Source: Cyanobacteria bacterium REEB459
GTDB taxonomy: Bacteria; Cyanobacteriota; Cyanobacteriia; Phormidesmidales; Phormidesmidaceae
Direction of reading: 5' to 3'
NCBI GenBank assembly: GCA_018970085.1
Contig: JAGWXD010000001.1
Coordinates: 124,001 to 188,000, forward strand
DNA: 64,000 nt
The notes under the pieces: model-generated
Told to the model about the DNA's origin: nothing
Databases searched by the model: none
Seen by the model: only the letters and a program-made list of their open reading frames with translations
Position numbers and translations under genes: made by a program
Shown here: positions 1,922 to 5,330 of the stretch, piece after piece
Layout of the letters: each line of letters opens with the position of its first letter
How positions within the stretch are numbered: position 1 is the first letter of the stretch

Positions 1922-2296
1922 CAATGGCACTGATCCGTTATGGTTGATAGCTGGTCAGGACTTGCCTCCAGGGACTCTCCACACCTGCCACCCAATTGCC
2001 CGGGGGCTGAGGCAGTAGGCAGGCATCGATGATGGTTTAAGTTTATTAAACTAGCCTTAAAAGAACCCCACAATATTAGACAATAGCAAATCCACTTCAG
2101 AGTGTTTACCCCTCCCGGGTGAACTTCATCGGATTGTCGGCATCCCTTTTTTGCTCACCAGTCAGGTCCATCAAGATGGCCCTGGATTGCAGGTCGCCTG
2201 GGTCAATACACTCTCTCTAGCATTACCCCCCAGCAGTCCGCCGCATCGATTCGCTGGTTGAATGGGTTGAGCCACGAATCGCCCGAGTCTATCGCC
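1922..2296. other. Intergenic region upstream of ppk1
   Basis: About 375 bp between divergent genes. I see a short AT palindrome (AGTTTATTAAACT near 2040-2052) and AT-rich sequence that could hold promoters, but no convincing Pho-box direct repeats and no small gene. A TTG at 2258 is in frame with ppk1 and is an alternative start. Confidence 0.35.
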
Positions 2297-4456
2297 ATGG
2301 CAGTTCCACCCCAGGATGACATGTCCCCTAACGTTGTTAGCTCAGCCCACTACATCAATCGGGAGCTGAGCTGGCTAGAGTATAATCGCCGGGTCCTGTG
2401 GCAAGGTCTAGATCCCCGCACTCCCTTGCTGGAAGCACTTCGGTTTTTGGCGATTTTTAGTAAAAACCTGGATGAATATTTTATGGTGCGGGTGGCCGCC
2501 CTTAAACAGCAAATAGCAGCCCAGGTACATCCTCCCGGCGCCGACGGGCTCAGCCCTGCTGAGCAAATGAGGCTGATTGGCCAGCGGCTGCGGCCTATGG
2601 TTAACCAGCAGCATCAAGCTTTTTTTGGTCACCTCCGTCCCCAAATGGGGCGCCATAGGGTGCGCCTGCTCACCTACGGTGAACTTAGTGCCGAACAGCG
2701 CGCCTTTATGGTCACCTACTTTGAAGATCAAATTTTTCCGGTGCTCACGCCTCTAATTGTCGATACCGGCCATCCCTTTCCCTACCTGTCTAACCTCAGC
2801 CTAAATCTGGTGGTACTGCTTAGCGATCGCCAGAGCAGCCTACCCCAGGTGGCACGGGTGAAAATCCCCAGGGTCCTGCCCCGGTTCCTGCCCTTACCAG
2901 AGGTTTTCCGTCGCCATCCCTACCCCTCCTGCCACTGGTTAGGTATCCCCCTGGAGGAGGTTATTACTCACCATCTTCAGGACCTATTTCCCGGGTTAGA
3001 GGTGCAGGGACACTACCTTTTTCGCCTCACCCGTAACGCTGATTTAGTGGTCGCAGAGGAGGAGGCTGGGGATCTCATGCAGGCGATCGAACAGGAACTG
3101 CGCAAACGGCCCCTGGGCGGATCGGCGGTGCGGTTAGAATTACAACGCCATACCCCCAGATCGGTACGAACCCTGCTAATGGAGTTCCTAAACCTGGGGG
3201 AGGCAGATATCTATGACATTGATGGTTGGCTAGGACTAGGGGATTTAACCAGCCTGGCGAGTTTACCGGTTCCAGAGTTGAAGGACCCTCCCTGGGTGCC
3301 CGCCCTTCCCCCAGCCTTGCGCGCCTTACAGCCCGGGGGGGGAGTCCAGGCAGAGGGCTTACCACCCCAGGGGGAAGGCTTTTTCGCCCTGGTCCGTCAG
3401 CAGGATCAGCTATTTCATCATCCCTACCATTGCTTCGTGGCCACCGTACAGCAGTTTATTATCCAGGCTGCCCATGACCCCCAGGTATTGGCAATTAAAA
3501 TGACCCTTTACCGGATTGCTGGAGGGTCTCCCATCCTCAGGGCTCTAGCGGCAGCCGCAGAGCGGGGTAAGCAAGTAACTGTGGTGGTAGAGCTTAAGGC
3601 TCGCTTTGACGAAGAAAATAATATTAATTGGGCCCGCCACCTAGAACAGGCCGGTGTGCATGTGGTTTATGGTCTGATGGGTCTTAAAACCCGTGCCAAA
3701 ATGGTGATGGTGGTGCGCCGCGAGGCCGATGCCATGATCCGCTACTGTCATCTAGGAACAGGGGACTATAACCCCAAAACCGCCCTTCACTACACCGATC
3801 TCAGTCTGCTGTCGGCCCGGCCCGATCTGGGGGCTGATATGGCTGAATTGTTTAACTATCTCACCGGTTATTCTCGCCAGCATAGCTACCGCCAGCTCCT
3901 GGTAGCTCCCCTGACCCTGCGCCAGAGCCTGGAGAGGTTGATTCAAGGAGAAATAGACCACGCTCAACGGGGGGAGGGGGGAGAGATCATCGCTAAGCTC
4001 AATACCCTGGTGGACCCAGACCTGATTGCCAGACTTTACCAGGCTTCCCAGGTAGGGGTCTCGATTGATTTGATTGTGAGAGGGATTTGTTGTTTGCGGC
4101 CTGGCATGGCGGGAATCAGCGAGAATATTCGGGTAATCAGTATTATTGGACGCTTTCTAGAACACTCGCGGATTCTCTATTTCAGACAAGGGGGTAATGA
4201 AACTTTCTTGTTGGGAAGTGCAGATTGGACCCCTAGCAACCTGGATAGCCGGGTAGAAGTTCTGGTACCGGTGAGAGATCGCCCCAGTCAAGCCGAACTC
4301 CGACTGGTGTTAGACCTGGCCCTGAGCGATCAGCGTCAAGCCTGGGATCTAGCTGCTGACGGCAACTACAGCCAGCGCCACCCGCAGTCCCTAACCAACC
4401 CCTGCAGTTTTCAACAGCGGCTGATGGACCGGGCCAGCCAGCCTAACCGGCGCTGA
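2297..4456 (+). CDS. ppk1: Polyphosphate kinase 1, with arginine at the catalytic phospho-histidine position
   Basis: PPK1 makes inorganic polyphosphate from ATP through a phospho-histidine intermediate. About 719 residues, the normal length. The N domain starts YINRELSWLEYNRRVL, and the two phospholipase-D-like catalytic halves are complete (LYRIAGGSPILRA; ELKARFDEENNINWA; HLGTGDYNPKTA; GRFLEHSRIL; SADWTPSNLDSRVEV). The striking point is codon 466 (3692-3694, CGT): the text reads GLKTRAKMVMVV where the family has KTHxK or KIHAK, so the His equivalent to E. coli H435 is Arg. The histidine equivalent to H592 is present (His623), as is His485. In the second half the usual W-M-x-R-N is W-T-P-S-N. 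The ATG at 2297 is chosen; an in-frame TTG lies at 2258. The end overlaps the convergent CPBP gene by 14 bp. The family assignment is certain; activity is doubtful. Confidence 0.95.
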   Translation: MAVPPQDDMSPNVVSSAHYINRELSWLEYNRRVLWQGLDPRTPLLEALRFLAIFSKNLDEYFMVRVAALKQQIAAQVHPPGADGLSPAEQMRLIGQRLRPMVNQQHQAFFGHLRPQMGRHRVRLLTYGELSAEQRAFMVTYFEDQIFPVLTPLIVDTGHPFPYLSNLSLNLVVLLSDRQSSLPQVARVKIPRVLPRFLPLPEVFRRHPYPSCHWLGIPLEEVITHHLQDLFPGLEVQGHYLFRLTRNADLVVAEEEAGDLMQAIEQELRKRPLGGSAVRLELQRHTPRSVRTLLMEFLNLGEADIYDIDGWLGLGDLTSLASLPVPELKDPPWVPALPPALRALQPGGGVQAEGLPPQGEGFFALVRQQDQLFHHPYHCFVATVQQFIIQAAHDPQVLAIKMTLYRIAGGSPILRALAAAAERGKQVTVVVELKARFDEENNINWARHLEQAGVHVVYGLMGLKTRAKMVMVVRREADAMIRYCHLGTGDYNPKTALHYTDLSLLSARPDLGADMAELFNYLTGYSRQHSYRQLLVAPLTLRQSLERLIQGEIDHAQRGEGGEIIAKLNTLVDPDLIARLYQASQVGVSIDLIVRGICCLRPGMAGISENIRVISIIGRFLEHSRILYFRQGGNETFLLGSADWTPSNLDSRVEVLVPVRDRPSQAELRLVLDLALSDQRQAWDLAADGNYSQRHPQSLTNPCSFQQRLMDRASQPNRR

Positions 4457-5330
4457 TAGGCTGTCGGCTCAAGCGATAGAACACCACCAAAAGCCCGATC
4501 AAAAAGCACAAACCAGTGAGGCCCGCCAGAGGATTACCCTGCACTCCGGTAACCCAGGGCGGTACCTGGCCGGTTGGTTGGGTCAGGTGGGCAACATTCA
4601 GCACATAGTAAGTCCAGACCAAACTACTGTGGAGACCAATCGATGCTCCCAGGCTGGTTTCTCCAGGATAGGCAGAAAACTGGATCCGACGCGCCCAAAC
4701 CAGAGTCATACCCAGCAGGGCTAGACCTAAAAACTGAGGCCAGGTAGCCAGTACCTGATCCAGGGGTTTAATAAAGTGGGCCAGGGCAAAGATCACACTG
4801 TTGGTAGCCAGGGCCAGCCCAGGGGTAAACCCCCGTTCTAACTCCGCCAACAACCAGCCGCGAAACAGCAGTTCCTCAGCCCACCCCACCGCCAGAGCGG
4901 TGACAACTCCACCCAGCGCAACGGGGACCAGGGTGCGGAGATTTAACGCGGCGGGGTTGAGGGCTAACCAGCCCCAGGCTAATTCCACCATCACCATGGT
5001 GCTGAGGCTTAGGCTACCCATCAGGGCTCCTAAGCGCAGGGGCCGCCAGAGCCTGAGCGGGTGCACTAAACCCAGGGTTTGCCAGACTCGGGAACTGCGG
5101 TGCAGGTACCTTTCCCAGGGGGGCAACACCAGAAGAAAAACCAGATAAAGCAGAACCATGGGGAGCACATCGCCCCCTGGTAAGCGGCCCTGCTCCGATA
5201 GCCGATAAAGAGGCCAGGCCAGAGGAAACCAGAGGGCCAGCACCAGGGCAACAAACACCATAATTCTAGCCAGGGGCGATCGCCGCAGGTAGCTAATCAA
5301 ACCGGGCCATCGTTTACTCATCAGGCTCAA
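4443..5330 (-). CDS. CPBP-family intramembrane metalloprotease (CAAX/Abi type)
   Basis: A 295-residue polytopic membrane protein with about seven or eight hydrophobic segments. It contains the glutamate motif EELLFRGWLL (EExxxR) near residue 153 and FALAHF (FxxxH), the metal-binding signatures of the CPBP family related to Rce1 prenyl proteases. Bacterial members are putative proteases involved in maturation, immunity or signalling; the substrate here is unknown. Its ATG lies inside clpS (17-bp overlap), so the two are translationally coupled. Its 3' end overlaps ppk1. Confidence 0.88.
   Translation of the reverse strand: MSLMSKRWPGLISYLRRSPLARIMVFVALVLALWFPLAWPLYRLSEQGRLPGGDVLPMVLLYLVFLLVLPPWERYLHRSSRVWQTLGLVHPLRLWRPLRLGALMGSLSLSTMVMVELAWGWLALNPAALNLRTLVPVALGGVVTALAVGWAEELLFRGWLLAELERGFTPGLALATNSVIFALAHFIKPLDQVLATWPQFLGLALLGMTLVWARRIQFSAYPGETSLGASIGLHSSLVWTYYVLNVAHLTQPTGQVPPWVTGVQGNPLAGLTGLCFLIGLLVVFYRLSRQPISAG

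Follow-up and report, generated by a model that had tools for sequence, protein, structure and literature searches.

A cyanobacterial PPK1 paralog with arginine at the phospho-histidine position

A full-length PPK1 gene and its locus

The window analysed here is a stretch of 64,000 nucleotides from Cyanobacteria bacterium REEB459 (contig JAGWXD010000001.1, positions 124,001 to 188,000). It contains a gene of the PPK1 family, PPK1-A, on the forward strand at 2297-4456, recognised by TIGR03705, four PP_kinase Pfam domains and a fold model. The frame is already open from a TTG at 2258 (2258-4456, 732 codons), but alignment with orthologs favours the ATG at 2297 as the start. The predicted protein scores 797 bits against TIGR03705, which has a curated cut-off of 465.85. 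It matches PPK1 along its entire length, with all four PP_kinase domains in order (PF13089, PF02503, PF17941, PF13090), and the PPK2 domain PF03976 is absent from the Pfam matches. An AlphaFold2 model of the protein (pLDDT 84.5, pTM 0.86) has E. coli PPK1 as its top PDB match (1xdo, TM 0.84), with 9uuh and 2o8r also matched; the TM score to 1xdo and 2o8r is 0.84-0.85. Descent, as read from the sequence, and predicted fold both place PPK1-A within PPK1. We found no stops and no frameshifts over the 732 codons, and the conserved columns are largely intact. A preliminary description had held that this is a full-length frame and not a decayed gene, and the complete frame and the predicted PPK1 fold bear this out.

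The neighbours of PPK1-A are conserved within the genus, which the genome taxonomy used here names Nodosilinea. An RRM RNA-binding protein gene lies at 1024-1470 on the forward strand, followed by an SRPBCC (polyketide cyclase-like) gene at 1463-1930 on the reverse strand. Downstream, also on the reverse strand, is a CPBP-type membrane protein gene (4443-5330), which is homologous to the neighbour in congeners and whose family name was given by inspection. The gene order common to this locus and its congeners is RRM, SRPBCC, [MscS], PPK1, CPBP-type, a 98-aa gene and STAS. In most congeners an MscS-like channel gene sits between SRPBCC and PPK1, and this pairing of MscS with PPK1 recurs widely across the host family. 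In the host the usual site of MscS (1931-2257) lacks the gene, which lies on another contig (G000:C48:6620-8044). The reverse is seen in a sister species (G040), where SRPBCC and MscS are still together and PPK1-A is about 187 kb away. The pairing is thus broken both in the host genome and in the sister species (MscS is also at L032 2610-4121).

The preliminary description suggested a search of the genome for a second ppk1 with the histidine, and one was found. This gene, PPK1-B (G000:C100:75590-77665), is 55% identical to PPK1-A and carries the motif KTHTK. In the tree it falls among the copy B sequences of its congeners, and is therefore unlikely to be a contaminant. The genome, at 3.24 Mb smaller than the 4-7 Mb of most congeners, also encodes two PPK2 proteins, whose genes lie elsewhere than PPK1-A, and one PPX. 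Searches of phages and plasmids returned only distant PPK1s, below 60% identity. We read PPK1-A as one copy of an ancient pair of PPK1 paralogs in the host's cyanobacterial family, still at its ancestral locus.

The active site of PPK1-A

The column of the phospho-histidine, E. coli H435, holds the codon CGT, encoding Arg, at 3692-3694 of the forward strand (codon 466 from the ATG at 2297, codon 479 from the TTG at 2258). Here E. coli PPK1 reads GLKIHAK and PPK1-A reads GLKTRAK. The column holds His in 139/139 canonical-type cyanobacterial PPK1 sequences and in 12/12 of the divergent type. The in-frame codon and its column therefore confirm the earlier reading of an arginine at the catalytic histidine, and the phospho-acceptor expected of an active PPK1 is replaced in PPK1-A. 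The preliminary description had also advised looking for a clade that shares the arginine. Alignment and a pattern scan of the phylum found no relative with Arg; the residue is private to the host genome, and we rejected it as a clade marker. Among the PPK1 motif sites listed for 65 genomes of the host family, the codon is CAC or CAT everywhere but in PPK1-A. A pattern scan of the motif for Arg and Arg-like codons across 386 genomes of the phylum returned only PPK1-A and one unrelated match (G402), which we rejected as a chance out-of-frame match.

Among the columns with 98% or higher conservation across 128 relatives, PPK1-A departs at E. coli positions F17, R37, V376, D379, V399, H435, N459, R616, Y620 and T648. 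The substitutions below were located by alignment, all on the forward strand. The most telling, apart from the histidine, is at N459 (M. tuberculosis N515), the last residue of the HxGTGN motif, where PPK1-A has Asp (GAC, 3764-3766). This column is Asn in 139/139 canonical-type sequences and is replaced only in PPK1-A and in a diverged lineage at the same locus, so that a second residue expected of an active PPK1 has been exchanged. D379 is Gly (GGG, 3524-3526; IAGGSP for TSGDSP) and R616 is Ser (AGC, 4235-4237; WTPSN for WMPRN). Ser also replaces the first R of LDRRVE, at E. coli Y620 (AGC, 4247-4249), in a column that is invariant in other cyanobacterial PPK1. A simple hypergeometric count gives only p 0.04 for an enrichment of active-site residues among the changed invariant columns.

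Other landmarks are kept, namely N45, R375, R405, K437, H454, Y468, R564, H592, R594, S610 and E623. All of the nucleotide/polyP contacts (N45, R375, R405, Y468, R564) are thus present, as is the second histidine, H592 (CAC, 4163-4165, FLEHSR). The statement in the preliminary description that all other landmarks are retained stands for FLEHSR and others of the set and fails at N459, D379, R616 and Y620. The WTPSN that it pointed out is present in PPK1-A. We rejected this motif as a mark of catalytic loss, since Calothrix brevissima NIES-22 has SADWTPSN together with an intact KTHAK. The Calothrix sequence (L111) is His-bearing with many other changes in conserved columns, and is another fast-evolving PPK1.

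The effect of losing the histidine can be judged from published mutants. In M. tuberculosis PPK1, H491A and H491Q lose autophosphorylation, polyP synthesis and ATP synthesis alike, and N515 belongs to a set of residues at which mutation impairs NTP synthesis alone (PMC3215733). The two numberings differ by a constant 56, which pairs H491 with E. coli H435 and N515 with N459. E. coli PPK H435A serves as a catalytically inactive variant (PMC7387796). By analogy with these variants, PPK1-A should be inactive in both directions. A PPK1-A that is still active, through another phospho-acceptor (His511 or H592) or in one direction only, is highly improbable. H592, R375, R405, Y468 and R564 are kept, and a His codon private to PPK1-A (residue 511, 3788-3790) adjoins Tyr512 (E. 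coli Y468), the ribose-contacting Tyr; His511 is the only candidate for a newly acquired substitute histidine. However, the M. tuberculosis mutants were inactive although other histidines remained, and N459 is lost in PPK1-A as well. Activity in one direction only, as had been suggested, is disfavoured because H491A and H491Q abolish both reactions, and the use of another histidine gained no positive support, even though His511 lies beside the active-site Tyr.

PPK1-A shares with the E. coli (1xdo/1xdp) and M. tuberculosis enzymes the four domains, the full length and the predicted fold, and differs from E. coli PPK1 in H435 to Arg, N459 to Asp, D379 to Gly and R616 to Ser. The laboratory-made variants E. 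coli H435A and M. tuberculosis H491A/H491Q resemble PPK1-A in that the same single position is removed from an otherwise complete protein. Unlike them, PPK1-A is natural, has Arg rather than Ala or Gln, and carries the extra motif changes.

Altered copies and relaxed selection at the same locus

PPK1-A is not the only altered PPK1 in the family. A diverged copy, clade C, occurs in twelve genomes of a four-genus lineage (G002-G007, G010, G048-G051, G060; sequences L142, L144, L146, L148, L178-L185) and is about 45% identical to PPK1-A. All 12 sequences have K437N, H454Y, N459D, N461L and N617G and are without N45 and R405, while H435 and H592 are invariant. Clade C thus shares with PPK1-A an altered active site, N459D and the MscS-like, mostly also SRPBCC, neighbour, but retains H435 and has N45, R405, K437, H454, N461 and N617 replaced throughout. 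MscS adjoins the gene in 4/4 loci with enough flanking sequence, and SRPBCC in 3/4 of these. The best tree found joins clade C to copy A (its log-likelihood exceeds that of the free search by 16.3; p-AU 0.80). A tree joining it to copy B was not rejected, and the locus is therefore the stronger argument for regarding clade C as copy A. Copy B is also present in the drafts of 11/12 of these genomes. A class-wide pattern search found the clade C motif nowhere outside the host family. From its residues, clade C is a candidate for either a new PPK1 activity or a pseudoenzyme. One member, L185 (G051:C453:79-2091), has an internal TGA stop and comes from a low-completeness draft genome.

A third alteration is found in a congener (G021, contig C265; L112/L170), where about 300 residues, including the domain with H435 (C1), are deleted in frame from PPK1-A. 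The deleted copy lies inside a 60 kb contig with its flanking genes intact. Canonical residues are kept in all of 11 further family genomes that we fetched, in which copy A is the full-length PPK1. The catalytic site has thus been altered at this locus three times or more (PPK1-A, clade C and G021), mostly where copy B is present; the association with copy B is a correlation across few independent events. We set aside a Fisher count of altered copies with and without PPK1-B, which rested on provisional numbers and was phylogenetically non-independent. The apparent loss of copy A in G039 was likewise set aside because the contig ends just after the MscS gene.

These alterations bear on whether the CGT is real. 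The codon might instead reflect a mistake in sequencing or assembly, or variation among strains, in an enzyme that is otherwise active, as CAT and CGT are one base apart and the Arg occurs in a single draft assembly of 102 contigs. This is nevertheless very unlikely. N459D, D379G and R616S, all within that catalytic region, would each have to be a further error or be tolerated, and catalytic residues have changed independently at the locus elsewhere in the family, which gives a real loss a far higher prior probability than an error at exactly this codon.

The terminal branch of PPK1-A is 0.73, compared to 0.10-0.16 in its sisters. The branch of the host's PPK1-B is also long (0.22) and its MscS has diverged too, so the long branch of PPK1-A is partly genome-wide. 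For the host, dN(A)/dN(B) has a median over pairs of 1.8, compared to a median of 1.3 elsewhere (5-95%: 1.04-1.85). In three sisters (G035, G040, G042) copy A has a pairwise dN/dS of 0.13-0.15 and copy B one of 0.03-0.04, while the two copies have similar values in other genome pairs. Purifying selection on copy A is clearly weaker in these sisters, though not absent. These sisters still have the His; relaxation of copy A probably set in earlier than the loss of the His in the PPK1-A lineage. Their copy A sequences (L011, L016, L018), which have no MscS/SRPBCC neighbours, also carry G456S in HxGTG and SADWRPRN for SADWMPRN. Pairwise dN/dS with PPK1-A itself was not used, as dS was saturated (1.8-2.2) or, for some copy B pairs, not computable.

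Constraint on PPK1-A persists. It has changed 4/130 invariant columns (3%) and 48% of the most variable ones, like long-branched PPK1s that bear the His. On this pattern of substitutions, a long neutral decay of the gene is excluded. Excess changes in its C1 domain were significant against the sister subclade (p 0.0009) and not against PPK1s generally (p 0.25), and we did not take them as proof of selective acceleration in that domain.

Catalytic loss and the role of the locus

We consider PPK1-A to be a genuine, catalytically dead paralog that is dispensable beside the intact PPK1-B, with a probability of roughly three in four. The presence of PPK1-B may have freed copy A to lose catalysis, which would have been lost with the exchange of the phospho-acceptor His for Arg, plus that of Asn for Asp in the same HxK...GTGN motif. 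Going by the published mutants, PPK1-A would neither autophosphorylate nor make or use polyP, and polyP synthesis in the cell would be left to PPK1-B. It would still fold as a PPK1 and might bind nucleotide or polyP via N45, R375, R405, Y468, R564 and H592. A folded protein, perhaps with such binding, is plausible given the confident AlphaFold model and its match to 1xdo and 2o8r. PPK1-A may now serve as a pseudoenzyme in binding or as a partner, or it may be in early decay. The interpretation offered in the preliminary description is therefore partly supported. Its suggestion of a pseudoenzyme is the best-supported reading, with fold, frame and locus intact, PPK1-B present and N459 lost too; its suggestions of one-directional activity and of another histidine are not.

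The dead copy may be kept by selection for a non-catalytic job, e.g., joining PPK1-B in a hetero-oligomer, modulating it, or sensing polyP or nucleotides; we hold this tentatively, at not quite even odds. The frame is intact, the conserved columns are little changed despite the long branch, and the gene has been kept in a genome smaller than those of most congeners. The uniformity of the new residues in clade C (12/12) implies that altered copies can be long-lived. Against this, the catalytic domain was lost in G021, and the inactivation of PPK1-A might simply be recent. A late arrival of the Arg in a dispensable duplicate on its way to loss is about as likely, at only slightly lower odds. It would fit conserved columns almost as constrained as those of active PPK1s, the relaxed selection on copy A in the sister species, and the in-frame deletion within the same genus. 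However, at least two more motif or motif-adjacent residues (N459, R616) have changed, which suggests more than one step, and other draft genomes of the genus mostly have an intact copy. A broader reading, in which the PPK1 of the SRPBCC-MscS locus would be a lasting non-canonical class, decatalysed or re-purposed at least three times to act as a regulator, scaffold or polyP/nucleotide sensor beside an active PPK1-B, is doubtful.

In the literature searched, we found no report of a natural PPK1 without the phospho-histidine or of a PPK1 called a pseudoenzyme. PPK1-A is a warning for annotation, as it scores far above the curated cut-off of the general PPK1 model yet is without the catalytic residue. 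If real, it would be a naturally occurring test of non-catalytic PPK1 functions, with the intact paralog as a built-in control. The recurrent change of the active site at one locus provides a manageable group of genes in which to study whether polyP synthesis is regulated by PPK1 paralogs.
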